A DNA stretch of 64,000 nucleotides, from positions 496,001 to 560,000 of the forward strand of contig SSEB01000003.1 in the NCBI GenBank assembly GCA_008012115.1, in the 5' to 3' direction. The notes under the pieces are model-generated. The model ran no database searches, had not been told where the DNA came from, and saw only the letters and a list, made by a program, of their open reading frames with translations. The DNA is from Nevskiaceae bacterium. Lineage in GTDB: Bacteria; Pseudomonadota; Gammaproteobacteria; Nevskiales; Nevskiaceae. Of this stretch, positions 2,916 to 41,108 are shown piece after piece (within the stretch, counting starts at the first letter, position 1; every line of letters starts with the position of its first letter). A program made the translations under genes and the position numbers.

Positions 2916-3035
2916 GGCGCCACCCGCTGTGGCCGAAAAGCGTTCCGGAGTTGTGACTAAATATTTATCAAATTTAAAAAAGATAAACATTTAATAACAT
3001 CTTTCCCAGGCGGAAAGCCGGGAGCGGGTGGCGCC
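2916..3035 (+). repeat. Palindromic intergenic element, copy 1
   Basis: A 120-bp imperfect palindrome between acpH and the acyl-CoA dehydrogenase gene. The outer arms are perfect over 13 bp: GGCGCCACCCGCT at 2916-2928 and AGCGGGTGGCGCC at 3023-3035. Inside, 2950-2969 pairs with 2982-3001 at 16 of 20 positions around a 12-base AT loop. The conserved right box AATAACATCTTTCCCAGGC lies at 2993-3011, and GCGTTCC sits at 2939-2945 on the left side. Orientation is plus, defined by the TTTCCCAGG box on the right. Confidence 0.85.
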
Positions 3036-3157
3036 GACGAAGGCCCCGGGCGGCGCGTCTCACCACATCGGACGAAGCGTGGCCGGGGGCGCTGCCTACA
3101 ATGGCGTGAGTCAGGCTCACCAGCGGGCCGTTCCATTCCAGTTCACGGGTATTGCGC

Positions 3158-4357
3158 ATGTCCAACGCCGACCGCCTCAGCGTCTCCCAACTCTTTTCCG
3201 GTCTCTCCAACCAGGAGCAGGAAATTCTCGACACCGCCGACCGCTTCGCGCAGGCCGAGATGTATCCGCTGTCGCAGAAGATGGACGACGAGGAATGGTG
3301 GCCCAAGGACATCTTCCCCAAGATCGGCGCCACCGGCTATTTCGGCATCACCGCGCCGGAGTCGCTGGGCGGCTCGGGCATGGACATCTTCACCTCGGGT
3401 CTGATCCTGCAGGCCTTCGGCCGCTGGAACCACGCCCTGGCCCTGAGCTGGGTCGCGCACGAGAACCTGTGCCTGCACAACATCCTGCGCAACGCCAACG
3501 AGGCGCAGAAGAAGAAGTATGTGCCGGGGATGTGCAAGGGCACGCTGATCGGCGCGCTGGGCCTGACCGAGCCGGGTGCCGGTTCCGATGCGCTGGGCTC
3601 GATGCGCACCACCGCGCGCCGCGAGGGCGGCCATTACGTGCTCAACGGCCGCAAGATCTACATCACCAACGGCCCGGTGGCCGACGTGCTGCTGGTCTAC
3701 GCCAAGACCGACAAGGACAAGGGCGCCCAGGGCATCAGCGCCTTCATCGTCGAGAAGGATTTCCCCGGCTTCAAGGTCGCTCAGAAGCTGACCAAGATGG
3801 GCTTCCGCGGCTCGCAGACCGCCGAGCTGGTGTTCGACGAATGCCGCGTGCCGGCCGAGAACCTGGTCGGTGTCGAGGATCGCGGCGGCAAGGTGGTGAT
3901 GAGCGGCCTCGATCTCGAGCGCGCCATGATCTCGCCGATCTGCCTGGGCATCGCCGAACGCGCCTTGCAGCTCTCCATCGACTACGCCCGGCAGCGCAAG
4001 CAGTTCGGCCGGCCGATCGCCGACTTCCAGATGGTGCAGTCGATGCTCGCCGAGATGTACGTGTGGGTGGAAAGCATGCGCCTGTTCACCTACCAGACCC
4101 TGCGCGCCGCCAACGCGATCGGCGAGGAGGAAGGCGGCCGCGGCGACATCCACAAGATCACCGCCGCCGGCGTGATGTACGTCGCCGAGACCATGAACAA
4201 GGTGCTGAACCACGGCGTGCAGGTGCATGGCGGCAGCGGCTACATCTGGGAGAGCGAGATCAACCGCCTGTACCGTTCGATCAAGCTGCTCGAGATCGGC
4301 GCCGGCACCACGGAAGTGCGCAAGATGATCATCAGCAAGGAACTGCTCAGCGGCTGA
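3158..4357 (+). CDS. Acyl-CoA dehydrogenase, isovaleryl-CoA-dehydrogenase-like
   Basis: A 399-residue FAD enzyme of the acyl-CoA dehydrogenase family, forming an alpha,beta double bond in an acyl-CoA. Visible signatures are GLTEPGAGSDALG, ITNGPVADVLLVYAKTD, RKQFGRPIADFQMVQ and the C-terminal QVHGGSGYIWE. The usual C-terminal catalytic Glu position reads GAGTTEV, with Ala where short-chain enzymes have Glu. A Glu sits in LDLERAM at about residue 254, as in isovaleryl-CoA dehydrogenases, so a branched-chain or terpenoid acyl-CoA is a reasonable substrate guess. I used the ATG at 3158; a TTG two codons upstream is also possible. It is followed after 11 bases by an SDR gene, probably in one transcript. 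Confidence 0.85.
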   Translation: MSNADRLSVSQLFSGLSNQEQEILDTADRFAQAEMYPLSQKMDDEEWWPKDIFPKIGATGYFGITAPESLGGSGMDIFTSGLILQAFGRWNHALALSWVAHENLCLHNILRNANEAQKKKYVPGMCKGTLIGALGLTEPGAGSDALGSMRTTARREGGHYVLNGRKIYITNGPVADVLLVYAKTDKDKGAQGISAFIVEKDFPGFKVAQKLTKMGFRGSQTAELVFDECRVPAENLVGVEDRGGKVVMSGLDLERAMISPICLGIAERALQLSIDYARQRKQFGRPIADFQMVQSMLAEMYVWVESMRLFTYQTLRAANAIGEEEGGRGDIHKITAAGVMYVAETMNKVLNHGVQVHGGSGYIWESEINRLYRSIKLLEIGAGTTEVRKMIISKELLSG

Positions 4358-4368
4358 TCCCGGCGACC

Positions 4369-5226
4369 ATGAACGTCGAACAACTGAATTCGCCCGAGCA
4401 TCTCTGGACCGCCGACACGGTCTACCGTCCCGACCTGTTCAAGGGCAAGGTGGCCCTGGTCTCCGGCGGCGGCAGCGGCATCGGCCGCGCGGTGGCGCTG
4501 CTGTTCGCGCGGCTCGGCGCGACGGTGGTGATCTGCGGCCGCACCCTGGAAAAGCTGGAGAAGGTGGTGGCGTTCGCGCAGTCCAAGGGCGCGGACATGA
4601 CGGCGATGACCGTCAACGTGCGCGAATCGGACGCCGTGGACGCGTTGTTCAAGAGCTTTCATGAAAAATTCGGCCGGCTCGACCATGTCGTCAACAATGC
4701 CGGCGGCCAGTTCCCGCAGCATGCCATCGATTACGCGCCCAAGGGCTGGATGGCGGTGATCAACAACAACCTCAACGGCACCTGGTTCATGATGCAGCGC
4801 GCCGCACAGTACTGGCGCGAGCACCAGACGCCGGGCTCGATCGTCAACGTCGTGGTCGTCACCGAGCGCGGCATGCCCGGCGTGGCGCACACGGTGGCGG
4901 CGCGCGCCGGCATCGTCGGCGCCTCGCGCACGGTGGCGGTGGAGTGGGCGCCGCTGGGCATCCGCGTCAACTGCGTGGCGCCGGGCCTGACCGCGACCGA
5001 GGGCCTCGAGGTCTACCCGCCCGAAGCGCAGAAAGAGTTCCCGCTGGCCAATCCGCTGAAGCGGCCGGGCACGCCGATGGAGATCGCCGAGGCCTGCATC
5101 TATCTCAGCGCGCCTTCCGGCAGCTTCGTTACCGGCGAGGTGCTGACGGTCGACGGCGGCGGCAAGCTCTGGGGCGAGCTGTGGACGGCCGGGCGGCCGG
5201 ACTGGTACGCGCTGCCGCGCAGCTGA
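4369..5226 (+). CDS. SDR family oxidoreductase, 2,4-dienoyl-CoA-reductase-like
   Basis: A 285-residue short-chain dehydrogenase fold with the dinucleotide-binding SGGGSGIGRAVA near residues 31-42, NNAGG, and a C-terminal TGEVLTVDGGG. The catalytic YxxxK motif is not there: the aligned segment reads TVAARAG, giving Thr and Arg. Loss of the Tyr is a feature of 2,4-dienoyl-CoA reductases, and the following APGLTATEG segment also recalls that group. With the acyl-CoA dehydrogenase gene 11 bases upstream, a role in beta-oxidation of unsaturated or branched acyl-CoAs is likely. An acyl-CoA reductase from a terpenoid pathway is the main alternative. Confidence 0.75.
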   Translation: MNVEQLNSPEHLWTADTVYRPDLFKGKVALVSGGGSGIGRAVALLFARLGATVVICGRTLEKLEKVVAFAQSKGADMTAMTVNVRESDAVDALFKSFHEKFGRLDHVVNNAGGQFPQHAIDYAPKGWMAVINNNLNGTWFMMQRAAQYWREHQTPGSIVNVVVVTERGMPGVAHTVAARAGIVGASRTVAVEWAPLGIRVNCVAPGLTATEGLEVYPPEAQKEFPLANPLKRPGTPMEIAEACIYLSAPSGSFVTGEVLTVDGGGKLWGELWTAGRPDWYALPRS

Positions 5227-5272
5227 GATGGAAAACTGCGGGCTGCACGACAAAACTCGTCTGGCCGGCGTA

Positions 5273-5301
5273 TTGCCGATTGTCCTGCCCTGACATAGGC
5301 T
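5273..5301 (+). promoter_or_regulatory. Possible sigma-70-type promoter
   Basis: TTGCCG at 5273-5278 and TAGGCT at 5296-5301 are separated by 17 bases, 40 bases before the LolA-like gene. The match to the consensus is partial, and the upstream SDR could also supply read-through. Confidence 0.3.
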
Positions 5302-5341
5302 CAATCCACGAAGCGGCCGTTCGATGCCGATGGGGAAGACC

Positions 5342-6121
5342 ATGATGAAACATCTCGGATTGTTGCTGCCCTTGGCGATGGCGCTGCCGGCCTTCGCCGG
5401 CGACCCCGCGTTCGACAAGGCCTATCGCTGCATGCGCGCCACGGTGCCGAGCACCCTGCGCGTGCAGGATATCCAGTTCGATTCCACCGACCGCGCCGGC
5501 GGCACGCGCATGCTGCGCGGCAAGGTCTACGCCACGGTGGAGAAGGGCCTTGCACGCGTCTCCATCCGCATCACCGCGCCGGCCAATGTCGCGGGGGCCG
5601 CCTACCTGGTGCGCGAGCGTGGCGCCGGCCAGGAGGACGACATGTTCGTCTACCTGCCCAGCGTCGGCCGCGTGCGACACGTCACCGGCGCCTTCGCCAA
5701 CGGCTCGCTGCTGGGCACCGATTTCAGCTACGCCGAGACCAAGCTGATCCAGAACGCCTTCAGCGGCGCCGACGGCAAGCTGGAAGCGCCGGAGACCCTC
5801 GACGGTCGCGCGCTGCAGGTGTTCAGCCTGCTGCCCAAGTCGCCCAAGACCTCGGCCTACAGCCGCGTGCGCGTGCACATGGACGACAAGACCTGCGTGC
5901 CGCTCAAGGCCGATTTCTACCAGGGCGAGACGCTGCGCAAGCAACTCGCCGCGCCGGTGACGGCGCTCAAGCCCAGCGGCAAATACTGGTTCCTGTCGGA
6001 GATCGACATGCGCGACCTGGTCGAGGGCAGCCACACCACCATCCGCATCGGTGCGGCGGCCGAGGCGACCGGCATCAGCAAGGGCCTGTTCGATCCCAAC
6101 AGTTTCTACCAGGGCAACTGA
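5342..6121 (+). CDS. Outer membrane lipoprotein-sorting-like (LolA-like fold) exported protein
   Basis: A 259-residue protein with a clear Sec signal peptide (MMKHLGLLLPLAMALPAFA, cleaved before GDPAF). The body resembles the LolA-like family often called outer membrane lipoprotein-sorting protein: RMLRGKVYATVEKG, then FVYLPSVGRVRHV, DFSYAE and a C-terminal TTIRI. Such proteins sit in the periplasm and are often found with RND/MMPL lipid transporters, but none is adjacent here. A lipid- or sterol-binding shuttle role is inference from the fold. The ATG at 5342 lies three bases after GGGGAAG; the next codon is also ATG. Confidence 0.75.
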   Translation: MMKHLGLLLPLAMALPAFAGDPAFDKAYRCMRATVPSTLRVQDIQFDSTDRAGGTRMLRGKVYATVEKGLARVSIRITAPANVAGAAYLVRERGAGQEDDMFVYLPSVGRVRHVTGAFANGSLLGTDFSYAETKLIQNAFSGADGKLEAPETLDGRALQVFSLLPKSPKTSAYSRVRVHMDDKTCVPLKADFYQGETLRKQLAAPVTALKPSGKYWFLSEIDMRDLVEGSHTTIRIGAAAEATGISKGLFDPNSFYQGN

Positions 6122-6156
6122 GTCGCCTTTTACGGCGACATGAGGCCCGCAGCGCG

Positions 6157-6864
6157 CTAGAGCAGGACGTACTGGCTGGTGGGCATCACGTCGATGGTGC
6201 CCATGTCGATGAAGCGATGGACGCTGTCCATCATGATCTTGAGGTTCGCCTCGAACTTCGCCTTGTCGCCCGGTGCGTCGAAGAACGTCAGCGGATCGGT
6301 CAGCGCCGCCAGCGGGAAGCACTCCTCCACCATCGCGTCCAGCGGCGGCGCACCCGCGGTGAGTGGCCGCACCACCACGTTCTGCGCGTACTCGAACGTC
6401 GATTGCGTATCGATGGCGATCTGCGTGTGCGAGTTGTGCCAGACGTCGAGCCACTGGCCGTAACTGAGCCGCGCCGGCTTGCGCAGCAGCGCGATCTGCG
6501 CAAAACCTTCGGTGCGCTGGCCCGGTTGCGGCGGATGCTGGCGGTTGCGCAGGGGACGCGATTCGGTCACCAGATAGGCCGCGTGGCGCGCCGTGGCCGC
6601 GGCGATGGCGGCATCCACCGGCTGGCGCAGAGGCGCGATGGCACTGTCCACCCAGACCTGCAGCACGGCATCGGGCGGCGGATCGAGGAAGGTCTGCCGC
6701 AGGCCGCTGCCGGCAGCGACCGCGGCATCGGCCACGTTCAGCTGCAGGCCGCGCAGCGTGGGCAGCGCCCGGAGTCGCGCCGCGAGGTCGCCGCGCAGGC
6801 GCGCGGCGAAGGGATCGACGTCCTCTTTGGGATCGCGCCAGACCAGGTAGACGACTTTTTCCAT
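6157..6864 (-). CDS. EthD domain-containing protein
   Basis: A 235-residue protein with a ferredoxin-like EthD/dimeric alpha-beta barrel pattern. The N-terminal MEKVVYLVWRDP strand, the central LLRKPARLSYGQWLDVWHNSHTQ and the later NVVVRPL are typical: the Trp-His-Asn-His segment is the conserved part of EthD proteins. EthD proteins accompany oxidative degradation clusters and their exact chemistry is mostly unknown. It is the last gene of a minus-strand operon, 7 bases after the SDR gene, so it probably acts on the same pathway intermediate. Confidence 0.75.
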   Translation of the reverse strand: MEKVVYLVWRDPKEDVDPFAARLRGDLAARLRALPTLRGLQLNVADAAVAAGSGLRQTFLDPPPDAVLQVWVDSAIAPLRQPVDAAIAAATARHAAYLVTESRPLRNRQHPPQPGQRTEGFAQIALLRKPARLSYGQWLDVWHNSHTQIAIDTQSTFEYAQNVVVRPLTAGAPPLDAMVEECFPLAALTDPLTFFDAPGDKAKFEANLKIMMDSVHRFIDMGTIDVMPTSQYVLL

Positions 6865-6871
6865 GGCCGGC

Positions 6872-7663
6872 TCAGGGCATGTAGGCGCCGCCGTTGGCGT
6901 CCAGCGCCGCGCCGGTGACGGCGCTGGCGTAGTCGGACACCAGGAACAGCGCCGCGCGAGCGCACTCGTCGTCGGTGGGGATGCGGCCCAGCGGAATGCT
7001 GGCGGCGACCTGCGCCTTCTGCTGCTCCACCGGAATCTTGTGTTCCTGCGCGATCCACTGCATGTAGCCTTCCACCGGCGCGCCCCACATCCAGCCCATG
7101 TGGATGCTGTTGACGCGGATGTTGTCCTTGCCCACTTCCTTGGCCAGGTACTTGGCGGAGTTGGCCAGCGCCGCCTTCGATGCGGCGTAGCCGGCCTCGC
7201 CCAGCGGCGGCACCTGGCGCGCGGCCATGGTGTTGATCATGACGATGGCGCCGGCCTTCTGCTTCTGCATCTGCGGCAGCACGGCCTGCGTCAGCTTGAG
7301 CGTGCCGATCAGGTTGGTGCCCAGCACCGCGTGCCAGTCGTCGAGCTTGGCGGTGGAGACGTAGTCCATGTCGCCGTGGATGAAGGCGCTGTTGACCAGC
7401 GCGTCGATGCGGCCGAAGGTCTGGAGGGTTGCCGCGACCAGGGCGTCGCACTGCGCCCGGTCACCGATGTCGGTGACTTTCTTCAGCACCTTGCAGGCCG
7501 GGTTGACGGCCTTGACGCGCGCCTCGGCGTCGTCGAGCTTGGCGGCGCTGCGCGCCGCGGCGACCACGCCGGCCGCGCCCTCGCGCGCGGCTTCGACCGC
7601 GAGCTTGACGCCCAGGCCCGGGCCGATGCCGGACACGATGACAATCTTGTCGTTGAGTAGCAC
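6872..7663 (-). CDS. SDR family NAD(P)-dependent oxidoreductase
   Basis: A 263-residue classical short-chain dehydrogenase. The cofactor site reads VSGIGPGLGVKLA, the active site is GYAASKAALA (YxxxK intact), and VNSIHMGWMWG and TGAALDANGG follow. The GTG at 7663 is the best start because GGGGAG stands about seven bases upstream and it opens directly into the first strand (LLNDKIVIVSG). The frame also continues upstream through the sulfotransferase region, but that is an out-of-frame shadow. Member of the four-gene operon with the sulfotransferase and EthD genes; substrate unknown. Confidence 0.85.
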   Translation of the reverse strand: MLLNDKIVIVSGIGPGLGVKLAVEAAREGAAGVVAAARSAAKLDDAEARVKAVNPACKVLKKVTDIGDRAQCDALVAATLQTFGRIDALVNSAFIHGDMDYVSTAKLDDWHAVLGTNLIGTLKLTQAVLPQMQKQKAGAIVMINTMAARQVPPLGEAGYAASKAALANSAKYLAKEVGKDNIRVNSIHMGWMWGAPVEGYMQWIAQEHKIPVEQQKAQVAASIPLGRIPTDDECARAALFLVSDYASAVTGAALDANGGAYMP

Positions 7664-7707
7664 TGCGTTCTCCCCGGGAGATGGTGTTGATATCGTGATC
7701 GCGCGGC

Positions 7708-8871
7708 TCAGGCCGCTTCGATGTATTGCTGGCGATAGTCGGCGAAGTCGCGCTTGAGCTGCGCCTCGCTCAGGCCGAAGTCGGCGGCGTGGTAGTCGTG
7801 GGCCTCGCGCTTGTCGCGGCGATTGATCTCCATCCAGGCCTGCATCGCGCGCTCGGCCTCGGGCGTCAGCGTCATGCCGGTGTGGGCGTAGATCGCTTTC
7901 ACCACCTCGAAGGGCTTTTTCACCGTGTCGATGAAGCGCACGTCGAAGAACGGCGCGGGATTCTTGTCGCGCACGGCCATCGTGTGGTGGAAGGCGCGCG
8001 CCATCAGGTCGTTCCACTCGCGGCCCGCCGCAGTGGCGTCCGCCTCGGCGCTGTAGATGCGCCACAGCGTGTCGATGAAGCTGGCGATGGAGGGAATGGT
8101 GTCCACCGGATCGCGGTGGGTCTGGATCACCTGGGCGCCCGGAAACTCGCGCAGCAGCAGGGCCATGCGCAGCAGATGATGCGGCGCCTTCAGCACCCAG
8201 CGCTGCGCGACGATGCCGCGCTGGCGTTTCTGCCATTGCAGGAACTTCAGCACGCGCTGGAGGTAGTCGTAAGCCGGCTTTTCGTCGCTGCCGTGCAGCC
8301 AGTTCATGTAGCCGGGCACGTGGGCATAGGCGTTGAACGCGGCCATGAAGGAATGCTCCATCAGCATCACTTCCTCGTCGGCCTGATCGGCGTCCATCGG
8401 GTGGATCGCCATCAGCTTGGGCATGGCGTCGACCATCACCCTCACTTCGCCGCGGGCGCGCTCGATGCGCTCGACCGGATTCTTGAGGTCTTCTCCGGGG
8501 AACGGCACCGGGTAGCGCGACTCCCACCAGTGCATCGAGTACAGATTCGGATCGCAGGACAGCACGCGCTGCAGCAGCGTGGTGCCGGTGCGCGGCAGGC
8601 CGACGATGACGATGGGCGGCGCGATGACCTCGTGATCGATCTCCGGATGCAGGCGGAAGAACTCCTCGATACGCAGGCGGTTGACCAGCAGCTCGACGAA
8701 CTTGTGTTCGAGCAGGCCACGGCCGAAATCGGACAGCTTGGCCTCGCGATTCAACGAGTCGCACAGCACCGCCAGCGCCTGGCGATAGCTGAGGTCGCCG
8801 AAATTCTTCAGGCCGCCGGCCTGCGCCAGCGCGGCGGCTTCCAGTGCCTGGGGTTCCAGTGCGTGACTCAT
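7708..8871 (-). CDS. Sulfotransferase family protein (PAPS-dependent)
   Basis: A 387-residue protein with the PAPS-binding 5' loop IVIVGLPRTGTTLLQRVL near residues 84-100 and the 3'-phosphate loop THRDPVDTIPSIASF further on, both hallmarks of sulfotransferases. It should transfer a sulfuryl group from PAPS to a hydroxyl of a small molecule. Its start ATG overlaps the stop of the preceding DUF1214 gene as ATGA, so the two are translationally coupled. In a neighbourhood rich in steroid-type enzymes a sterol-like acceptor is possible, but this is inference. Bacterial members of this family are often annotated without known substrate. Confidence 0.85.
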   Translation of the reverse strand: MSHALEPQALEAAALAQAGGLKNFGDLSYRQALAVLCDSLNREAKLSDFGRGLLEHKFVELLVNRLRIEEFFRLHPEIDHEVIAPPIVIVGLPRTGTTLLQRVLSCDPNLYSMHWWESRYPVPFPGEDLKNPVERIERARGEVRVMVDAMPKLMAIHPMDADQADEEVMLMEHSFMAAFNAYAHVPGYMNWLHGSDEKPAYDYLQRVLKFLQWQKRQRGIVAQRWVLKAPHHLLRMALLLREFPGAQVIQTHRDPVDTIPSIASFIDTLWRIYSAEADATAAGREWNDLMARAFHHTMAVRDKNPAPFFDVRFIDTVKKPFEVVKAIYAHTGMTLTPEAERAMQAWMEINRRDKREAHDYHAADFGLSEAQLKRDFADYRQQYIEAA

Positions 8872-9992: not shown

Positions 9993-10141
9993 CCGGTGCC
10001 CTCCGCACCCTGTCGCATGGCGGCGGTGCCGGCATGTCGTTCTCATGAAGGACTCGACAGTAGGCCGTCGACGTGGGGCGGGCTTCCCCTGTTTGCAGTA
10101 GTGGCGAAACGCGTTTTTCCGCAGCCAAAAGGGCGCGGAAA

Positions 10142-10259
10142 GCGCCACCCGCTCGACGTTTTTCGCCAATCCAGTAAGTTATATTAAATAATATAATTAA
10201 TTAATTATTATTTAAAATAAAACATTCTGTGCGTGATCAAGCCGCAGAGCGGGTGGCGC
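10142..10259 (+). repeat. Palindromic intergenic element, copy 2
   Basis: A 118-bp element filling the middle of the 339-base gap between the DUF1214 gene and the response regulator, both on the minus strand. The outer arms are perfect: GCGCCACCCGCT at 10142-10153 and AGCGGGTGGCGC at 10248-10259. The core is the most AT-rich of the six (TTATATTAAATAATATAATT region) and nearly self-complementary. This is the most diverged copy: the right box reads AAACATTCTGTGC instead of AACATTTTCCCCAGGC. Nothing else is visible in the gap. Confidence 0.8.
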
Positions 10260-10331
10260 GTCCGCGAGCGGTGCAGACGCCAAATGAAACGCCGGCAGCG
10301 TTGCCGGCGTGCTGCGGCGTTACGGCAGTGC

Positions 10332-11267: not shown

Positions 11268-11292
11268 TGCATCGCTCTCCTCAGGCGCTTTT

Positions 11293-13122: not shown

Positions 13123-13335
13123 GTCCCTGATCTCCCCCTGGGCTACGCATATCGGGCGTTGCGGGAGGCGGCTCGGGTCCGCTCTGGTTTCCGGCAACAG
13201 TGCGGATTTAAGGCTGCGGCCGTCAAGCCCGCATCGTCTGTCTGGAGCAGATGGCCGGTTCTCAGCCAAACGGAGGATTCGGGCCGCACACGCCTGCGTT
13301 CAACTGCTGGCCAGACCGATGGAGCGAAACCGAAC

Positions 13336-13833: not shown

Positions 13834-14014
13834 CGTGTGCTGCACTGCGGCTCCTCTGATCGGATGAGGCAGCGCGCGGCGCGCGGACGTTACAAGATCG
13901 CACCGCGACGGCGCGCTGCGCCGTCACCAGGATTCGAGGCAGGACCACCTGCCCGATGCGAGCCGGCGCCATACGGAATCGCCGGCGGCAGAACGATGCG
14001 ATCGGGGAGATTCG

Positions 14015-15388
14015 ATGCGTTTCATGACGACGGCGGGAGCCTGCGCGTTGCTCGCAGGCTGGGCGGCAATCATCCAGGGGGCCGAGGCCAAGGGCACGGC
14101 GGCCGAGGCGGCGCAGCTCGACGGCCCCAAGTACACCTGCACCGGCGCCGAGCGTGCCGGCAGCGCTGACGGGGTGGCCGCCTACACCGGCCAGTGGCTC
14201 GACAGCTGGCCGGGCATGAAGAGCGCCACCGGCTACGATCCCGGTCCTTACGCTGACGAGAAGCCGCTGTTCGTGATCACTGCGGACAACATGGCGCAGT
14301 ACGCGGCGCATCTCACCGCCGGCCAGAAGGAGCTGCTCAAGCGCTATCCCAAGACCTATCGCATGAAGGTCTATCCCAGTCATCGCGATTTCCGCATGCC
14401 GGACTGGGCCTGTCAGGTGGTGAAGAAGAATGCGGTGGAGGCCGAGGTGGTTCACGACGGTCTCGGCGTCAACGGCACCACCGGGGCGCATCCCTTCCCG
14501 TTTCCCAAGAACGGCACCGAGGCGATCTGGAACATCATCCTGCCGTACCGCGTGTGGAACGATGCCTGCATCGACGACATCGCCGATGTCTACGGCAACG
14601 GCAACATTGCCTGGGGCCGGCAGCGTTTCTCGACACTCAGCGTGTTCGCCAATCCCAAGGTGCGCGGTTCCACGCAGGGGCCGATCAACTCGTACTTCCT
14701 CAACGAGTCGCTGCTGCCGCCGCGCGACAAGGGCAGCATCGCCGTCGGCATCCAGCCCAACGATTTCTCCGCCGCCAGCACCCAGGCCTGGCAGTACATC
14801 CCCGGCACCCGCCGCGTACGCCAGGCGCCCGACGTCTGCTGCGACTACCCGGTGCCGCCGGCCGGCCTGCGCACCGTGGATGACGATTACATCTTCAACG
14901 GCCCGCCGCGCCGCTACACCTGGAAGCTGATCGGCAAGAAAGAGATCTACATCCCCTGGAACAACTTCCGCGTCAACGATCCGGCGGTGAAGTACAAGGA
15001 CCTGATCACACCCAACACGATCAATCCCGAGTACGTGCGTTACGAGCTGCATCGCGTCTGGGTGGTCGAGGCCGACCTGCGCGAGGGTTATCGGCACATC
15101 TACAAGAAGCGCGAGATCTACGCCGACGAGGACACCTGGCTGGCGGTCTGGGGCGACCAGTACGACAACCGCGACCAGCTGTGGCGCATCTCCTTCGTCA
15201 ACTATCGCTATGCGCCCAATGCCCAGGCCTACCATCGCGGCGCCAGCATCTACCACGACCTCAACACCGGCGGCTACGAGGCGGGCTACCTGGTGAACGA
15301 AGCCGGCGAGAACTGGTGGAAGATCAATGATCCGTCGCTGACGCCGGAGATGTTCAGTCCGAAGAGCGCGGCCATGGGTGGCCACTGA
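14015..15388 (+). CDS. DUF1329 domain-containing exported protein (first paralogue)
   Basis: A 457-residue exported protein with a signal peptide (cleavage near IIQGAEAKG). DUF1329 landmarks are WLDSWPGM, AYPSHRDF-type segment VYPSHRDFRMPDWAC, YIPGTRRVRQAPD, GLRTVDDDYIFNGPP, YELHRVWVVEA and WLVNEAG-like GYLVNEAGENWWK. DUF1329 proteins are periplasmic or outer-membrane-associated and nearly always pair with DUF1302 outer membrane proteins; the fold is related to LolA. The DUF1302 gene follows directly, so they are co-transcribed. A role in handling a hydrophobic substrate or lipid is inferred from context. It is closely similar to the protein at 42643-44022 and more distant from that at 59542-60900. 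Confidence 0.85.
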   Translation: MRFMTTAGACALLAGWAAIIQGAEAKGTAAEAAQLDGPKYTCTGAERAGSADGVAAYTGQWLDSWPGMKSATGYDPGPYADEKPLFVITADNMAQYAAHLTAGQKELLKRYPKTYRMKVYPSHRDFRMPDWACQVVKKNAVEAEVVHDGLGVNGTTGAHPFPFPKNGTEAIWNIILPYRVWNDACIDDIADVYGNGNIAWGRQRFSTLSVFANPKVRGSTQGPINSYFLNESLLPPRDKGSIAVGIQPNDFSAASTQAWQYIPGTRRVRQAPDVCCDYPVPPAGLRTVDDDYIFNGPPRRYTWKLIGKKEIYIPWNNFRVNDPAVKYKDLITPNTINPEYVRYELHRVWVVEADLREGYRHIYKKREIYADEDTWLAVWGDQYDNRDQLWRISFVNYRYAPNAQAYHRGASIYHDLNTGGYEAGYLVNEAGENWWKINDPSLTPEMFSPKSAAMGGH

Positions 15389-18858: not shown

Positions 18859-18970
18859 TCACCCGCTGTCGAGGGTCGGCCGTTTCCAGATGTTATTAAA
18901 TATTAATAAAATTTAAAAACGATAAATATTTAATAACATTTTCCCCAGGCCTGTGACCGACAGCGGGTGG
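18859..18970 (+). repeat. Palindromic intergenic element, copy 3
   Basis: A 112-bp element in the 311-base gap between the divergent yqhA-like and FMN-reductase genes. Outer arms CACCCGCTGTCG (18860-18871) and CGACAGCGGGTG (18958-18969) are perfect. The inner AT arms 18890-18907 and 18922-18939 pair at 17 of 18 positions around a 14-base loop, the best inner stem of the family. The right box AATAACATTTTCCCCAGGC at 18932-18950 matches the family. Nothing else is visible in the gap. Confidence 0.87.
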
Positions 18971-28377: not shown

Positions 28378-28489
28378 TCACCCGCTCCCGACGATGGCGT
28401 TCCCGGCATTGTTTTTTATTATCTATAGAAAATTCAATCAATAAATAATAAATAACATTTTCCCTGGGCAAATCGTCGGTAGCGGGTGG
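28378..28489 (+). repeat. Palindromic intergenic element, copy 4
   Basis: A 112-bp element in the 440-base gap between the divergent lipoprotein and desaturase genes. Outer arms CACCCGCTCCCGACGAT (28379-28395) and ATCGTCGGTAGCGGGTG (28472-28488) pair at all but one of 17 positions. Inner AT arms 28410-28426 and 28441-28457 pair at 15 of 17. The right box AATAACATTTTCCCTGGGC differs slightly from the other copies. Apart from this element and the palindrome at 28254 I see nothing in the gap. Confidence 0.87.
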
Positions 28490-30251: not shown

Positions 30252-30299
30252 AGAGCGCATCGCCGGCGTCGAGGCCGCGTCTCAGGGGCTGCGAAAACG

Positions 30300-30413
30300 G
30301 CCACCCGCTGTTGCCGTCGGGCTGACTGATATCGTTATAAAATATTAACTGATTTTTAAATTAATCAATATAAATAAACAATTTCCCCAGGGAAAACGGC
30401 TACAGCGGGTGGC
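30300..30413 (+). repeat. Palindromic intergenic element, copy 5
   Basis: A 114-bp element between the convergent desaturase-like and SDR genes. The outer arms GCCACCCGCTGTTGCCGT (30300-30317) and ACGGCTACAGCGGGTGGC (30396-30413) pair over 18 bases with one mismatch, the longest outer stem of the family. The AT core has only partial inner pairing. TTTCCCCAGGGAAA at 30382-30395 adds a small local hairpin. Located 12 bases from the SDR stop, so a role at transcript 3' ends is conceivable here. Confidence 0.87.
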
Positions 30414-30425
30414 GGCTTCCGCGCC

Positions 30426-31382: not shown

Positions 31383-31393
31383 CGCGGCGCGGC

Positions 31394-31927: not shown

Positions 31928-31944
31928 GGGGCGCGCTCCGTGGC

Positions 31945-33003: not shown

Positions 33004-33005
33004 GG

Positions 33006-33923: not shown

Positions 33924-33934
33924 GTGACTCTCAA

Positions 33935-34732: not shown

Positions 34733-34751
34733 CATCCTTCCGTTTAGTCCT

Positions 34752-34862
34752 GCCATCCATGGCGAGACATTACTGATTTGTTGAAACCCCGGCCCAGCCA
34801 TCCATGGCTGGGCGTTCGGTCTTGCCAACGATGCCATTGAGGCATCGTTGAAGCGCAAGACC
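34752..34862 (-). other. Intercistronic palindrome cluster in the meta-cleavage operon
   Basis: This region sits between the hydrolase stop and the hydratase start. Directly after the hydrolase stop, GGTCTTGC (34818-34825) pairs with GCAAGACC (34855-34862), and CAACGATGCC (34826-34835) pairs with GGCATCGTTG (34841-34850): an 18-bp hairpin with one four-base bulge. CCCAGCCAT and ATGGCTGGG at 34793-34812 form a second hairpin. The 12-base palindrome GCCATCCATGGC occurs twice (34752-34763, 34797-34808). No T-run follows, so this is not a simple terminator; mRNA processing or stabilisation is likelier. Confidence 0.6.
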
Positions 34863-35693
34863 TCACCCGTTCCTCAAAAAATCGAGGACGGTGCGATTGA
34901 ACAGTTCGCGGTGCTCCATCATCACCCAGTGACCGCAGTTCGGCACCAGCACCATGCGGCAGTTGGGGATGCCCTTGGCCAGCCGCAGGATGCCGTTCTC
35001 CGGCATCATGTTTTCATTGATGCCCCACAGCGCCAGCGTCGGTGCCTTGATCTCGGGCAGGCGCGCGGTCATGTTCGGCACCTTCATGGTCTTCATGACC
35101 TGCGGGTTCTGCAGCTTCATCAGCGCCAGACGCTCGGCCACCAGTGCGTCGTCCACGATGGTTGGATCGACCACGAAGGCCTTGATGAAGAAGGCCTTCA
35201 TGGTCTCGTGCGTGAACGGCTTGCCGGTGGCCAAGTGCGCGAACAGCGCGGACATGCCCGGCATCGCCTGGTAGTCCGGCATGTCGCTGACGCCGCCCGG
35301 CGCCATCAGCACCAGCCGTTCGACGTTCATCGGATGCGCCAGCGCGAAGCCCAGCGCCACCGCGCCACCCAGGGAGTTGCCCACCAGCGTGTATTTCGTC
35401 ACGCCGATCTGGTCCAGGGTCTGCTTCACGCACTCGATGAAGAAGTCGAGCGGGTATTCGACGTTGTCCGGCTTGTCGGAGTAACCGAAACCAATCAGGT
35501 CCGGCAGGATCACGCGATAGCCGGCTTTCACCAGCTCGGGATAATTGCCCTTGAAGTTGCTGTAGCCACAGGCCCCGGAGCCGGAGCCGTGCAGGAACAC
35601 CACCACCGGCCCGCTGCCCTCATCGAGGTAGTGGATGCGGTAGCCGTTGGGCAGCTGGGCATATCGGCCTTCCGGAACGGGTTTGCTGGACAT
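34863..35693 (-). CDS. Alpha/beta hydrolase, meta-cleavage-product hydrolase-like
   Basis: A 276-residue hydrolase resembling HsaD/BphD/MhpC. FLHGSGSGACGYSNF gives the oxyanion hole, VGNSLGGAVALGFA the nucleophile Ser, and NCGHWVMMEH the catalytic His. The usual acid position (WGxxD) reads ALWGINENMMPENG, with Asn or Glu where Asp is normal. It should hydrolyse the C-C bond of a ring-cleavage product. First gene of the operon hydrolase, hydratase, acylating dehydrogenase, aldolase. I chose the ATG of MSSKPVPEG at 35693; upstream in-frame ATGs would overlap an odd proline-rich leader. Confidence 0.87.
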   Translation of the reverse strand: MSSKPVPEGRYAQLPNGYRIHYLDEGSGPVVVFLHGSGSGACGYSNFKGNYPELVKAGYRVILPDLIGFGYSDKPDNVEYPLDFFIECVKQTLDQIGVTKYTLVGNSLGGAVALGFALAHPMNVERLVLMAPGGVSDMPDYQAMPGMSALFAHLATGKPFTHETMKAFFIKAFVVDPTIVDDALVAERLALMKLQNPQVMKTMKVPNMTARLPEIKAPTLALWGINENMMPENGILRLAKGIPNCRMVLVPNCGHWVMMEHRELFNRTVLDFLRNG

Positions 35694-35782
35694 GATGGGC
35701 TCGCGGACGAACGGACACGGCCACGCCGGCAGCCCCGGCGCGGGAACAGCCGCCATGTTCACGCCAGCGGCTGTCGATGGCT

Positions 35783-35839
35783 TCACCCTTTTGGGTGAGC
35801 GCTCGCCGGCGATGACTTAACGTCATCGCCGGCGAGCGC
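35783..35839. promoter_or_regulatory. Double hairpin in the hydrolase-SDR divergent intergenic region
   Basis: GCGCTCGCCGGCGATGAC (35799-35816) and GTCATCGCCGGCGAGCGC (35822-35839) form a perfect 18-bp stem with a TTAAC loop. Directly before it, TCACCC and GGGTGA (35783-35798) form a six-base stem with a TTTT loop. They lie in the 338-base gap between the divergent hydrolase operon and SDR gene, 90-146 bases from the hydrolase start. Possible roles are an operator, a 5'-leader structure or an insulator. Nothing else is visible in the gap. Confidence 0.6.
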
Positions 35840-36031
35840 GAACGCCCGGGCCCGATGCCTGGGCCGGGGTCGAAGCGGAGGCGCGAGGCTGCGCCAGGGA
35901 TGGCAGGACCGCGACATCGACGTGGCCCGTGGCGGGCGATGACGAGTGTCACCGCCGACTCCCACAGAGGGATGAGGTTGGCGGCGTGGCGGGCGCGCTA
36001 GAGTGGCGGTATCGATTCGAGGGGAGCCGGC

Positions 36032-36799
36032 ATGGCGCAATCATCGAAAGTCATCCTCGTCACCGGCGGCGCCAAGGGCGTCGGTCGCGGTATCAGCGAG
36101 GCGTTCCTGGCGGCGGGCGACCGCGTCATCACCTGCGGGCGCGAGGCGCCGTCGGCGTTGCCGGCCGCGGGCGGCAATACCGCGGAGTTCATCGCCTGCG
36201 ACGTGCGCGATGCGGCGGCGGTGGATGCCCTGTTCGCGCAGATCGCGCAGCGCCACGGCCGGCTGGATGTGCTGGTCAACAACGCCGGCGGCGCGCCGTT
36301 CGCCCTGGCGGCCAAGGCCTCGCCGCGTTTCCACGAGAAGATTTTTGCCCTCAACCTGCTGGCGCCGCTGCATCTGGCGCAGAAGGCCAACGCCCTGATG
36401 CAGGCGCAGGCGGAAGGCGGCAGCATCATCTTCATCGGCAGCGTGTCGGCGCTGCGACCCTCGCCGGGAACGGCGGCCTATGGCGCCGCCAAGGCGGCCG
36501 TCCTCAGCCTGGTGCAGTCGCTGGCGGTGGAATGGGCGCCGAAGGTCCGCGTGACCGCCGTGAGCCCGGGGCCGGTGCTCACCGAGCAGAGCGACCTGCA
36601 CTATGGCGATGCCGACGGCGTCACCGCCGTGGCGAAAACCATTCCGATGCAACGCCTGGCCAGTCCCGCCGACATCGGCAATGCCTGCGTCTGGCTCGCT
36701 TCGCCGGCGGCGGCGTATGTCTCCGGCACCAACCTGGCCCTGCACGGTGGCGGCGAGCGGCCCGCGTTTCTCGACGCGGCCACCGCCAACAAGTCCTGA
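36032..36799 (+). CDS. SDR family oxidoreductase
   Basis: A 255-residue classical short-chain dehydrogenase: ILVTGGAKGVGRGISEAFL, DVLVNNAGG, GSVSALRPSPGTAAYGAAKAAVLS with intact YxxxK, then VTAVSPGPVLTEQ and SGTNLALHGGG. Reads like an NAD-dependent beta-hydroxyacyl or hydroxysteroid type, substrate unknown. It is the first gene of a plus-strand pair: the AraC-type regulator GTG start follows only six bases after its stop, so the two are co-transcribed. Confidence 0.85.
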   Translation: MAQSSKVILVTGGAKGVGRGISEAFLAAGDRVITCGREAPSALPAAGGNTAEFIACDVRDAAAVDALFAQIAQRHGRLDVLVNNAGGAPFALAAKASPRFHEKIFALNLLAPLHLAQKANALMQAQAEGGSIIFIGSVSALRPSPGTAAYGAAKAAVLSLVQSLAVEWAPKVRVTAVSPGPVLTEQSDLHYGDADGVTAVAKTIPMQRLASPADIGNACVWLASPAAAYVSGTNLALHGGGERPAFLDAATANKS

Positions 36800-36805
36800 G
36801 GGCGC

Positions 36806-37840
36806 GTGGCGAGCGCCGCCACATCCGACGATCCGCGTTTCGACGAGGCGAATATCGCCGCCTCGACCCTGGCCGGGCTGGTCGAATACGGCCGCGAGCA
36901 AGGGCGCGATCCGGCGCGCTGGTTCGCCGGCCGTCATCTGACCCCGGAAGACTGCGCCGACCCCGATGCGCGGCTGTCGTTCCGCGAGGTCGCGCACATC
37001 GTGCGCGCCGCATTGCGTGATTTCCCGAAAGCATGGCCGCTGGGGCTGGCGGTCGGCAGCCGCGTCACCCTGCCGGCGATGGGGGCGCTGGGCTTCTCGC
37101 TGATGTCCTCGCCCGATCTCGCCGCGGCCGCCAATCTGGGCGCGCGCTATCACCCGGTCAGCGGCAGTCTGATGGATGTGAGCTGCCGCATGGCGCAGGG
37201 CGAGTTCCTGCTGCAGGCGCATGAGCGTTTCGAGTTGCCGGACTTGCGCCGTTTCCTCTGCGAAAAATTCTTTGCCAGCGCGCTGGCCGCCACACGTGCC
37301 CTGGCGGGTGAAGCTTACGCGCCGCTGCGGCTGGAGCTGGCCTATCCGGCGCCGCCGGGCGCCGAGGCCTATCGCCGCCTGTTCCGCTGCCCGGTGCAGT
37401 TCTCGGCGACGCGGCATTGTCTGGCGAGCGATCCCGCCGTGCTGCGCAAGCGCATCGCCACGGGCAGCGTCAGCGGCCAGACCGAGGCCCTGCGTCTGTG
37501 CGAGGCGCGCATGCCGCGGCCACCAGCGGCGCCCGACGAGCTGGCCTCCCTGCAGGCCTGGTTGCGCCAGCGTCTGGGCACCGCGCCGCGCGCCACCGAG
37601 GCGGCGCAGGCCCTGGGCTGCAGCGAGCGCACGCTGCGCCGACGGCTGTCGCAGGCCGGCATCAGCTTCCGTCTCCTGCACGACCGCCTGCGCGCGGAAC
37701 GGGCGCAGAAGCGGCTGGGCGACGCGCGGGTCTCGGTCGGCGAGGTCGCCGGCGAGCTTGGCTTCAGCGACGAGCGCGAATTCCGCCGCGCCTACAAACG
37801 CTGGACCGGCCACACGCCCAGCGCCGCGCGCCGACGCTGA
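36806..37840 (+). CDS. AraC family transcriptional regulator
   Basis: A 344-residue regulator. The C-terminal domain is AraC-type: APRATEAAQALGCSERTLRRRLSQAGISF then VGEVAGELGFSDEREFRRAYKRWTGHTPSAARR. The N-terminal 200 residues resemble the effector-binding part of the ArgR/OruR-like subgroup. Start is GTG at 36806 with GAGGG upstream. Likely targets are the co-transcribed SDR, the divergent meta-cleavage operon or the downstream sulfatase, but no site could be assigned. The 180 bases after it contain no gene and lead to the sulfatase. Confidence 0.82.
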   Translation: MASAATSDDPRFDEANIAASTLAGLVEYGREQGRDPARWFAGRHLTPEDCADPDARLSFREVAHIVRAALRDFPKAWPLGLAVGSRVTLPAMGALGFSLMSSPDLAAAANLGARYHPVSGSLMDVSCRMAQGEFLLQAHERFELPDLRRFLCEKFFASALAATRALAGEAYAPLRLELAYPAPPGAEAYRRLFRCPVQFSATRHCLASDPAVLRKRIATGSVSGQTEALRLCEARMPRPPAAPDELASLQAWLRQRLGTAPRATEAAQALGCSERTLRRRLSQAGISFRLLHDRLRAERAQKRLGDARVSVGEVAGELGFSDEREFRRAYKRWTGHTPSAARRR

Positions 37841-38022
37841 CGGCGGCGGTGCGGGGTGCCGGCCCGGCGCAAGGCCCGTGGCCGGAATGCCCCCGGCTCG
37901 CCGGATCGCCCCTCCCGGCTTGCGAAAGCGCCGCGCTAGCCTGGATGCTGCCGAAAATGGTCTGAGCTCAGAACGCCGCCGGCATTGCACTGGCGGCTAC
38001 ACTGCGAGAAAGGAGAATCGTG

Positions 38023-39873
38023 ATGAAGGGTGACAAAGGGAACCGCCACCGGCGTGGCGGCGTGATGGCGTTGGCCGCGCTCGGCGCCATGCTGCTGGCC
38101 GCCTGCAGCCGCTCGTCCCCGGCGCCCGTCGGCGTGGCGGGTGCGACGCACGGTCGCCCCAACGTGCTGGTGATCCTGGTCGATGACCTTGGCTATTCCG
38201 ATCTCTCCGCCTTCGGCAGCGAGATCGCCACGCCCAACATCGACGCGCTGGTGCACGAAGGCCGCGTGCTGACCAATTTTCATACCACGCCGTTATGCGC
38301 CACCTCGCGCGCGGAGTTGCTCACCGGCGTCGATCATCACCTCGTCGGCGTCGGCACCCTGGCGGAGAGCAGTTCCTTCTACCCCGGCAACGACGAGTAC
38401 AAGGGCGATCTCAACGACGGTGCGCCGACCGTGGCGGCCCTGCTGCACGACGCCGGCTATCACACCTACATGGCCGGAAAGTGGCACCTGGGTGGCAACG
38501 GCCCCAAGGCGGTCGGCTTCGAGCAGTCATTCTCCCTGGACTACAGCGCCGCCTTCGGCAGCAACTTCAAGCCGAGCAGCGCGCACCCGGAGTCCTCGGC
38601 CAAGACCTACTACGAGAACGGCACGGCGGCGACGTTGCCGGATGATTTCTTCTCGTCCGACTATTTCGCCAGCAAGCTGACGCAGTACATCGGCCGTGAC
38701 CATGGCGACGGCAAGCCGTTCTTCGCCTACCTCGCCTTCCAGGCCGTGCACTTCCCGCTGCAGGCGCCGGATTCCTATCTCGATCTCTACAAGGGCAAGT
38801 ACGACGCCGGCTACGAGGCCATCCGCAGCGCGCGCATCCAGCGCATGAAGAGCCTCGGCCTGATTCCGCAGGATCTCGATCCCAATCCCGGCGACGAGGC
38901 CCCGATGATCCGCTTCGGCCAGCCCGGTGTGCTCATCAACCAGCCGTGGGACGCTCTTTCCGCGTCGGATCGGCAGAGCGAGGCGCGCATCATGGAAGTG
39001 TTCGCCGGCATGCTCACCAATCTCGACGACAACGTCGGCCGCGTCATCGCTTATCTCAAGCAGATCGGCGAGTACGACAACACCCTGGTGATCTTCACCT
39101 CGGACAACGGCGCCGACGGCATGGGCTTCGGCTTCATTCCCTACACCGACCTCGGCAACCCCGCCAGCGTGCTGAGCATCGACAATTCGCTGGCCAACTA
39201 CGGCCGTCCGAGCTCCTTCATCTTCCGCAGCACGCGCTGGGCGGAGGCGGGCACCGCGCCGTTCCGGCTGTTCAAGGGCTTCACCGCCGAGGGCGGCATC
39301 TCGGTGCCGGCCATCGTGCGCCTGCCGCACCAGTCCAGCGCCCAGCCGCAGAGCGCGGCGCTGTCGACGCTGCGCGACCTGGTGCCGACCATCCTCGCTT
39401 ACACCGGCACAGCGGCACCGGGCGCCACCTACCAGGGCAAGGCCATCGCGCCGCTGGAAGGCGCCTCGCTGCAGCCGCTGCTGCAGGGTCAGCCCGGCGC
39501 CGTGCACGGACCGGACGAAGTGCTCGCCGACGAGGTCAACGACATCCGCGTGGTGCGCAAGGGGCCGTGGAAGCTGACGCAGATCCGCAACTACATGCTG
39601 CCCTCGGCGGCGGAGTTCCTGAACCACGACTGGCAGCTCTACGCCATCGACAGTGACCGCGGCGAGACCACCGACGTGGCGGCGCAGCACCCGGACGTGG
39701 TCAGCGCGCTGACGGCGGAGTGGAACGCCTACGCGCAGCGCGTCGGCTACGTCGCGCCGCTGCTGCCGCCGCAGTTGCCGGTGCCGCTGCCGACCTCGAT
39801 CGTCGGCCAGCTGGCGGCGCAACTGCCGGCACCGCTGCTGAATCAATACCTGCAACAGGTGCCGTCGCCGTGA
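38023..39873 (+). CDS. Sulfatase (formylglycine-dependent) lipoprotein
   Basis: A 616-residue type I sulfatase. The N-terminus is a signal peptide with lipobox LLAAC, so it is anchored in the envelope. PNVLVILVDDLGYSDLS gives the metal-binding Asp pair, and PLCATSRAELLTG holds the residue to be converted to formylglycine (Cys92); FTSDNGADG and KWHLGG complete the site. The key motif reads CATSR, with Thr where Pro, Ala or Ser is usual. AGGAG is well spaced for the ATG at 38023; a GTG one codon earlier is less likely. The dedicated maturase gene overlaps its stop. Confidence 0.87.
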   Translation: MKGDKGNRHRRGGVMALAALGAMLLAACSRSSPAPVGVAGATHGRPNVLVILVDDLGYSDLSAFGSEIATPNIDALVHEGRVLTNFHTTPLCATSRAELLTGVDHHLVGVGTLAESSSFYPGNDEYKGDLNDGAPTVAALLHDAGYHTYMAGKWHLGGNGPKAVGFEQSFSLDYSAAFGSNFKPSSAHPESSAKTYYENGTAATLPDDFFSSDYFASKLTQYIGRDHGDGKPFFAYLAFQAVHFPLQAPDSYLDLYKGKYDAGYEAIRSARIQRMKSLGLIPQDLDPNPGDEAPMIRFGQPGVLINQPWDALSASDRQSEARIMEVFAGMLTNLDDNVGRVIAYLKQIGEYDNTLVIFTSDNGADGMGFGFIPYTDLGNPASVLSIDNSLANYGRPSSFIFRSTRWAEAGTAPFRLFKGFTAEGGISVPAIVRLPHQSSAQPQSAALSTLRDLVPTILAYTGTAAPGATYQGKAIAPLEGASLQPLLQGQPGAVHGPDEVLADEVNDIRVVRKGPWKLTQIRNYMLPSAAEFLNHDWQLYAIDSDRGETTDVAAQHPDVVSALTAEWNAYAQRVGYVAPLLPPQLPVPLPTSIVGQLAAQLPAPLLNQYLQQVPSP

Positions 39874-40889
39874 ACCTCCACGGCCCCAGCGTGCGCATCG
39901 GCCTGCTGGCAGCGACGCTGCTTGGTGTCGCCTTCGCCGCCGCCTGGTCGCTGAAGGATCAGCGACCGCCGCCGGCGCACGCCGCGCTGGGCGACCGCAC
40001 GCAGTGCGCGGCCTACAGCGGCCTGCCGCCCGGCTGGGGCCAGGACGCGCACGCCGGCATGGTGCATCTGCGCGGCGGTGCCTATGAACTGGGCAGCACG
40101 CGCGGCTATGCCGAGGAGCGGCCGCCGCAGACGCGGCGCGTCGAGCCGTTCTGGATCGACCGCACCGAGGTCAGCAACGCGCAGTTCGCCGCCTTCGTCG
40201 CCGCCACCGGCTATGTCACCGAGGCGGAGAAGGGCGAGGGCGCCGCCGTGTTCCGCGCACCCGAGGGCAACGACGCCACCACGGCCGAAGGCAGCTGGTG
40301 GCACCTGGTCAAGGGCGCGGACTGGCGCCATCCCGAGGGGCCGGGCAGCAGCATCGAGGGCCGCGGCCACGAGCCGGTGGTCGACGTCAGCTACGCCGAT
40401 GCCCTGGCCTACGCCCACTGGCTGGGCCGCGAGCTGCCCAGCGAAACGCAGTGGGAGTACGCCGCCAAGGCCGGGCGCAACAACGAGTCGGCGGATCGCG
40501 CGCTGCGCGACGCGCAGGGCCGTCCGCTGGCCAACTTCTGGCAGGGCCTGTTTCCCTACCAGGACACCGGCGACGACGGTTTCCCCGGTCGCGCGCCGGT
40601 GGGTTGTTTCCCGGCCAATCCCTTCGGCCTGCACGACATGGTCGGCAATGTCTGGGAGTGGACCACCGACACCTACGCGGCACACGGCGAGGACGAGGCG
40701 ACGCGCGGTGCCGGCGAGGCGGTGTCGGTGGCGCCCATGCGCAGCGGCGCCGAGCGCAAGGTGATCAAGGGCGGCTCGTATCTCTGCGCCGCCAACTACT
40801 GCGTGCGCGCCCGCGCCGCCTCGCGTCAGCCGGAGGAGATCGACCTGCCGGCCTCGCACCTGGGCTTCCGCACCGTCGCGAAGTCCTGA
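39870..40889 (+). CDS. Formylglycine-generating enzyme (sulfatase maturase)
   Basis: A 339-residue FGE/SUMF1-type protein starting with GTG that overlaps the sulfatase stop as GTGA. One N-terminal hydrophobic segment (IGLLAATLLGVAFAAAW) suggests a membrane anchor or signal peptide. The FGE domain has FWIDRTEVSNAQFAAFVAATGY, LPSETQWEYAAKAGRN, GNVWEWTTD and KGGSYLCAANYCVRARAASR. The last segment has the redox cysteines Cys306 and Cys311 in the spacing of human FGE. It should convert the cysteine of the adjacent sulfatase to formylglycine using oxygen. Confidence 0.87.
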   Translation: MNLHGPSVRIGLLAATLLGVAFAAAWSLKDQRPPPAHAALGDRTQCAAYSGLPPGWGQDAHAGMVHLRGGAYELGSTRGYAEERPPQTRRVEPFWIDRTEVSNAQFAAFVAATGYVTEAEKGEGAAVFRAPEGNDATTAEGSWWHLVKGADWRHPEGPGSSIEGRGHEPVVDVSYADALAYAHWLGRELPSETQWEYAAKAGRNNESADRALRDAQGRPLANFWQGLFPYQDTGDDGFPGRAPVGCFPANPFGLHDMVGNVWEWTTDTYAAHGEDEATRGAGEAVSVAPMRSGAERKVIKGGSYLCAANYCVRARAASRQPEEIDLPASHLGFRTVAKS

Positions 40890-40994
40890 GACCACCTGCG
40901 GTATCGTCATGCCGGCGCCCAGCGGGGATTCCCTGCGGTCACCGGCCGGCATGGCGGTAGCGGCATCTCCTGCATCCGGACGACCGCGACAGCG

Positions 40995-41108
40995 GCCACC
41001 CGCTGTATGCTGCGGACGCTGGAGAGATGTTATAAAAAATAGATCAAATAAAAATTCGTTAAATAATAAATAACCATTCTCCCAGGCAAACATGCAAGAG
41101 CGGGTGGC
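40995..41108 (+). repeat. Palindromic intergenic element, copy 6
   Basis: A 114-bp element in the 281-base gap between the FGE and GH5 genes, both plus strand. Outer arms GCCACCCGCT (40995-41004) and AGCGGGTGGC (41099-41108) are perfect over ten bases. GTTAT (41029-41033) and ATAAC (41070-41074) begin the inner AT stem, which is weaker than in copies 1-4. The right box TAACCATTCTCCCAGGC at 41071-41087 fits the family. It is the last copy seen in the window. Confidence 0.83.

Follow-up and report, generated by a model that had tools for sequence, protein, structure and literature searches.

Evenly spaced intergenic elements of fixed geometry in a Nevskiaceae genome: candidate docking sites for a putative architectural protein complex

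Several described systems resemble the subject of this study, a family of 110-bp intergenic elements that came to notice as six copies in a 64,000-nucleotide stretch of the genome of a Nevskiaceae bacterium (assembly GCA_008012115.1, contig SSEB01000003.1, positions 496,001 to 560,000 of the forward strand; "the window" below means this whole stretch). Miniature inverted-repeat transposable elements (MITEs) of the ERIC, Correia, CIR and RUP families are, like these elements, short intergenic palindromes with inverted ends; they can reach hundreds of copies and vary between relatives. For example, Photorhabdus luminescens has 711 ERIC copies (PMC10969869). The copies of an ERIC-like MITE would be expected to be alike over their whole length, whereas the elements described here share their ends, core and exact length, have arms saturated with changes, are evenly spaced and show no target duplication. 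The REP/BIME families of enterobacteria likewise comprise hundreds of dispersed intergenic palindromes. REPs are tied to RAYT genes, whereas the element is a single unit of ~110 bp that does not lie beside the RAYT-type gene of its genome. A REP is a palindrome of 20-40 bp with a GTAG or CGTC tag (PMC3733652), a BIME can impede supercoil diffusion, and ~600 BIMEs might delimit domains (PMC6907758). Noc-binding sites (NBSs), as well as MatP and SlmA sites, are palindromic protein sites scattered round the chromosome, and Bacillus subtilis has about 70 NBSs (PMC4331003). Compared with NBSs, the elements are far longer, composite and about five times as numerous, and they lie between genes at near-even spacing. 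The first-pass annotation of the window had matched its six copies to no described family. A search of Rfam with the window, at gathering scores, likewise returned nothing, and in searches of the open-licence PMC literature none of the listed titles and opening lines of abstracts describes such a family.

The genome that holds the window (G000 below) is a draft assembly of 3,246,569 bases in 24 contigs, 94.8% complete. End pairs spanning 96-121 bp occur in it 331 times, and a reversed-pattern control gave 0. The family therefore has at least 331 members in a 3.25 Mb genome. Of the two outcomes that the first-pass annotation named as refuting it, a lack of further copies and a match to a known repeat family, neither occurred: further copies number in the hundreds, and the Rfam search was blank. 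Copies were analyzed one by one in 852,411 bases, or 26% of G000, where a tolerant search found 99. Since 86 of the 99 carry both end octamers exactly, ~380 copies are expected genome-wide. A gapless alignment of 65 copies defines the layout: 11-bp inverted ends (CGCCACCCGCT and AGCGGGTGGCG), two arms of 24 bp each, and a 46-bp core that runs from GTT to AAC, consists mostly of A+T and has a dyad consensus (GTTAT...ATAAC). The element, whose limits we set from CACCCGCT to AGCGGGTG, thus has terminal inverted repeats and a short non-coding body with no gene inside.

Element length is nearly constant. When 109-111 bp were allowed, 97 of the 99 copies measured 110 bp and two measured 109 bp. On contig C20, with lengths of 60-199 bp allowed, 50 of 55 raw pairs were 110 bp long; of the other five, one measured 109 bp, three had an end in common with a copy of 110 bp, and one was a copy whose end is damaged. 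The corresponding counts were 33 of 36 pairs for C1 and 14 of 14 for C19. A half-site search on C20 and C1, independent of the ends and allowing cores of 44-47 bp, returned a 46-bp core in 86 of 86 hits, with 3 hits in reversed controls. The ends are similarly rigid: element positions 2-8 and 103-109 are invariant in the 65 aligned copies (a set chosen at no more than one mismatch per end), and 97 copies picked with no more than three end mismatches differ at 3 of 1358 end positions. AT islands (at least 34 of 40 bases) that lack a full element number four in the 852 kb, and two of these are, by eye, elements with damaged ends; a one-sided remnant lies at C1:119694. Outside elements the end octamer was found 51 times, with 51.6 expected. 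This lack of over-representation indicates that the ends are kept as pairs, and it speaks against an independent role of the octamer, Chi-type or other.

The arms are the variable part of the element. A degenerate model of an arm motif near TTTTCCCTGGGGAAAAT matched the left arm only in 34, the right arm only in 26, both arms in 17 and neither in 20 of 97 copies, and strict forms of the motif are confined to elements within the 852 kb. The first-pass annotation had described a right-hand box close to AATAACATTTTCCCCAGGC. That box exists, as the end of the core plus this motif, but it is not specific to the right, occurring about equally often in the left arm. The motif, TTTCCC-NN-GGGAAA, resembles the NBS. 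At the center of motif-free arms the information content falls to ~0 bits (60 oriented copies). This pattern of conservation suggests a double-stranded element of fixed geometry that is under selection.

The distribution of the elements on the chromosome is non-random within the 852 kb. The mean spacing is 8.5 kb overall and 8.1-8.8 kb across three contigs. Its coefficient of variation is 0.478 (96 gaps), compared to means of 0.88-0.93 and a minimum of 0.66 in four null models of 3000 draws each, in which the same number of copies was placed randomly in the available gaps between our own gene calls. Spacings below 3 kb number 6, where 25-26 were expected. Three of the 99 copies overlap the end of a called gene, gene ends being approximate in our gene caller. 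Sixty copies lie in co-directional, 20 in convergent and 19 in divergent gaps. Among gaps of at least 116 bp, an element is present in 20 of 35 convergent and, as tested, 19 of 65 divergent gaps (p = 0.0096; the gap list gives 18 of 65). In the 60 co-directional gaps the element is a median of 38 bp from the upstream stop and 73 bp from the downstream start (p = 0.001).

Comparison with a congener bears on the history of the family. G001, the only congener compared, is 54% GC in the stretches read, and the longer matches that it shares with G000 are mostly 67-82% identical in DNA. Contig C1 and two G001 contigs are in large part collinear. Both flanking genes were found on a single G001 contig for 27 of the 99 copies and are adjacent there in 26. 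Three of these 26 comparable sites are occupied in both species (C1:64486, C1:105714 and C1:145069) and 23 are empty in G001, although G001 has an AT-rich stretch, possibly a decayed copy, at two of the 23 (C1:128801 and C1:178158). C20:421069 and C20:431302, which are not among the 26, are by eye also empty in G001. The difference in gap length, G000 minus G001, has a median of +79 bp for gaps with an element (n = 26, interquartile range 15.5-120.5) and -4 bp for collinear control gaps without one (n = 153; p = 1.2e-6). The extra length in G000 amounts to as much as roughly one element. Five G001 hits fall within collinear DNA, and three of them are the shared sites. Judging from the shared and empty sites and the gap lengths, the family likely predates the split between G000 and G001, and most G000 copies were probably gained as insertions; loss of copies in G001 is the less likely alternative.

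No target site duplication was detected at any of 48 settings of offset and length. Among 97 copies compared over both arms, the most similar pair agreed at 33 of 48 positions when both orientations were considered, while shuffles in one orientation averaged 29 with a maximum of 32. The absence of copies alike in both arms and of target duplications means that the sample contains no sign of recent copying. The MITE-like mobility suggested by the first-pass annotation is supported as the history of the family, by the 23 empty sites, and is not supported as current activity. Outside the sample, two copies at C3:65967-66075 (109 bp) and C3:67354-67463 lie 1.4 kb apart with the same left arm, and are probably a local duplication.

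A spent MITE is the main rival of the reading favored below. The elements could be MITE-like transposable elements that have no present function and whose transposase is lost or unseen, and their inverted ends, the sites empty in the congener with longer gaps in G000, the near absence of overlap with gene calls and the bias to gene ends and convergent gaps are all features of such an element. Even spacing could have arisen through target immunity or through selection against insertion into genes. The absence of target duplications is a weak disproof, because such duplications wane with age. A more serious difficulty is that the arms are saturated while the ends and the length are intact, which functionless decay would not produce: a spent MITE with target immunity explains insertion and spacing, and leaves the rigid conservation unaccounted for. 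That the ends are intact although the arms are saturated is the chief indication that the elements now serve the host, and we regard a spent MITE without function as possible but doubtful. A mover of the REP/RAYT type, in the form of the single Y1 transposase of the genome, would also explain the absent target duplications, as HUH transposition leaves none. G000 and G001 have one Y1_Tnp match each. However, the sole Y1_Tnp gene of G000, at C20:52430-53185 (L220), is not flanked by elements, the nearest copies being 1.1 kb away on one side and 6.9 kb on the other; Y1_Tnp is found in 25 of 38 relatives, 23 of which have no element at 1e-5; and the consensus of 65 copies has no GTAG- or CGTC-headed hairpin of 20-40 bp. 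The REP-like affinity proposed in the first-pass annotation is not supported for these reasons, and we consider a REP/RAYT-type element very unlikely. Short REP-like hairpins built from the end sequence, with ACCCGC and GCGGGT as the pair (loop 0-30), were searched for separately and are few, 9 in 852 kb and 5 in an inverse control.

Alternatively, the elements might act in transcription, as insulators or terminators at the ends of genes, where they would have taken the place of ordinary hairpin terminators during the spread of the family. Their position close to 3' ends fits this idea, as does the presence, by eye, of a plain hairpin at some of the empty G001 sites (the orthologues of C1:158831, C1:206964 and C1:243578). 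These G001 hairpins are GC hairpins (L178, G001 C17), one of which begins CACCCGCGC and ends GCGCGGGTG. Yet a run of T follows on the exit side in 10 of 100 cases and on the other side in 13 of 98, which is no excess. Terminator-like hairpins accompany 6 of 40 convergent gene ends with an element and 17 of 56 without (p = 0.09), and 9 of 59 co-directional ends with and 40 of 206 without (p = 0.57). The 19 copies in divergent gaps, which need no termination, are a further difficulty, and the explanation is in our judgment an improbable one. A structured RNA, or a DNA hairpin that forms a cruciform, is less probable still, to the point of being remote. In favor of it, energy minimization folds each of the six window copies end to end, as the first-pass annotation had observed, and the cores show weak covariation: cis-complementarity is 68%, compared to 64% in shuffled pairings (z 3.6; 1 of 500 shuffles as high). 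The folds draw mainly on the ends and core, however. The arms make up 48 of 110 bp and are complementary at 33% of positions, slightly below the 35% of randomly re-paired arms (65 copies), so that conservation does not extend to a full hairpin. Pairing within the cores averages 66% of positions (range 39-96%). Mutual information reveals no helix, only neighboring positions in the arm motif; the top long-range value, 0.33 bits, is below the shuffled maximum of 0.43. The weak core covariation remains, but these results and the blank Rfam search speak against the structured RNA put forward in the first-pass annotation, and arms that are free to vary and unpaired argue for a double-stranded protein site.

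We tentatively favor the interpretation that the elements are double-stranded docking sites for a putative architectural protein complex. Of the three candidates in the first-pass annotation, the nucleoid-protein binding site appears to fit best. The symmetry of the core and of the mirrored ends points to a symmetric protein, and the constant arm length to joint recognition of ends and core. In the proposed mechanism, the two 11-bp ends would be bound by a protein dimer, and the AT dyad by that protein or another one. The fixed arm length would hold these contacts in register, with ~110 bp of DNA bent or wrapped into one complex. Complexes every 8-9 kb would pin loops or block the diffusion of supercoils, serving as domain anchors or barriers, and sites that anchor loops or block supercoils would need just such an even dosing. 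The origin of the family would be an old MITE-like spread, by now apparently immobile, and selection would now maintain the ends, the core and the length. In E. coli, domain sizes of 10-400 kb are reported (PMC6907758), and the low end of that range, 10 kb, is near the element spacing.

Known nucleoid proteins were considered as occupants. Members of the H-NS family (PF00816) were found in neither G000 nor G001, though 19 of the 38 genomes searched have one; MvaT-type and other substitutes were not sought. The AT core resembles H-NS sites, and H-NS-like sites with one mismatch occur in 25 of 97 copies, compared to 3.4 when shuffled. With no H-NS family member found in G000, we set H-NS sites aside as the explanation. 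Sites for IHF were found exactly in 1 of 97 copies (1.4 when shuffled) and with one mismatch in 43 (28.6 when shuffled, maximum 38), a mild excess on which nothing is built.

Several observations weigh against docking sites. Independent binding of half-sites does not explain the weak cis-covariation of the core. The spacing, although overdispersed, is not periodic. The arm motif has no evident polarity along contigs, and in co-directional gaps it is downstream in 21 cases and upstream in 14. The copy-by-copy results come from about a quarter of the genome, and an end-based search would miss copies with badly damaged ends, of which the AT islands reveal just two. Finally, a congener with few copies and looser ends implies that the function is not essential across the genus.

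The family was also sought in relatives. Counts from profile searches refer to the best 100 or best 43 candidates scored per genome, and are not totals. None of 57 other genomes of the same taxonomic family has the exact architecture. At E<=0.1 the full-length profile matched G001 94 times, on both strands, among the best 100 scored, and matched weakly in 7 of 35 others (17 in G019, 12 in G008, 4 in G004, and one each in G012, G018, G020 and G047). At 1e-5, there were 27 matches in G001, on both strands, one in G027, and no more among 84 other genomes of the order. A model of the core gave 6 matches in G001 and 0 in 39 other genomes. Of 31 G001 copies, 18 have a core of 45 bp, 10 one of 46 bp and 3 a shorter one; their ends, where recognizable, are near CAC(C/T)CGC(A/T) and looser than in G000. 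A core scan of 780 kb of G001 returned 13 hits (2 in reversed controls), or ~1 per 60 kb. A half-element pattern matched G001 18 times, compared to 13 in the reversed control, with an AT-rich core by eye in 12 of the 18 (11 places). Three species from two other genera, each covered over 120-140 kb, have few AT islands (3, 3 and 1), and the core scan of them gave 1, 1 and 0 hits, with 1, 0 and 0 in controls.

Other matches in relatives were set aside. End pairs alone occur one or two times in 7 of 60 other relatives, but AT between the arms is 24-49% at the seven loci read, which are attributed to chance, as are matches beyond the group (at least 10 genome contigs and 3 viral contigs), which have non-AT cores in the matches listed. 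As a separate observation, two species of genus g8 (G019, L128; G027, L176; around 1501) have a core-like AT dyad of ~46 bp with no GC ends, and by eye the flanks look alike in the two species; the core could thus predate the ends.

All six window copies are present where the first-pass annotation had placed them. Each is exactly 110 bp, the earlier coordinates having taken in a few outer bases, and all six lie between genes by our own gene calls. Over the earlier coordinates their GC fraction is 0.39-0.48 in a window of 66% GC, and the T reported at the left end of copies 3 and 4 is as described. A pattern of end, arm and GTT matched 11 times, counting strands, in the window and in 0 of 100 window shuffles. 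No strand is assigned to the copies. Copy 1 (2921-3030; core 2953-2998; arm motif in the right arm, 2999-3022) lies between an ACP phosphodiesterase-family gene and an acyl-CoA dehydrogenase gene, both on the plus strand. It provides an example of the 11-bp end CGCCACCCGCT at 2918-2928 (plus strand, element positions -2 to 8) and of the mirror end AGCGGGTGGCG at 3023-3033, based on the per-position frequencies of 65 copies (aligned row). Copy 2 (10146-10255; core 10178-10223) separates a DUF1214 gene from a response-regulator gene, both on the minus strand; its left arm motif is called but poor by eye, and its core score, 12.1 bits, is the lowest of the six. Copy 3 (18860-18969; core 18892-18937; right arm motif 18938-18961) lies between divergent UPF0114 and FMN-reductase genes, and copy 4 (28379-28488; core 28411-28456; right arm motif 28457-28480) between divergent genes for a PQQ-type beta-propeller and a flavin amine-oxidase-family protein. 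Copy 5 (30302-30411; core 30334-30379; right arm motif 30380-30403) is located between convergent amine-oxidase-family and short-chain dehydrogenase genes. Copy 6 (40997-41106; core 41029-41074) has a strong motif in the right arm (41075-41098) and a weaker one in the left, and is found between a sulfatase-modifying-factor-domain gene and the next plus-strand gene.

From window position 41107 to the end of the window at 64000, and on to C20:564160, 27 kb are without an element, the longest such gap in the C20 stretch. The part within the window is largely a run of minus-strand genes, and near 61755 it includes an AT-rich island of ~40 bp with neither element ends nor a GTT...AAC core. Also in the window is a related gene pair 28,634 bp apart (14134-15242 and 42768-43876), with blocks that are 68-86% identical; the called genes span 14015-15388 and 42643-44022, and neither matches NCBIfam.

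We know of no described repeat family that combines even spacing, rigid geometry and free filler. One reading, which goes further than docking sites and which we regard as possible but not likely, is that a former mobile element has given rise to ~380 nucleoprotein anchors, all of the same geometry and dosed at one per 8-9 kb, which form a domain grid that the bacterium has written into its own DNA and in which selection holds no more than the ends, the core and the exact length. The nature of the barriers to supercoil diffusion in bacteria is described as an open question (PMC6907758). The elements would provide candidate barriers that can be specified to the base and counted, and a congener with few of them allows comparison. 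If this reading is correct, they would constitute the first sequence-encoded, evenly spaced system of chromosomal domain boundaries, and a transposon would have been domesticated into chromosome architecture within one genus.

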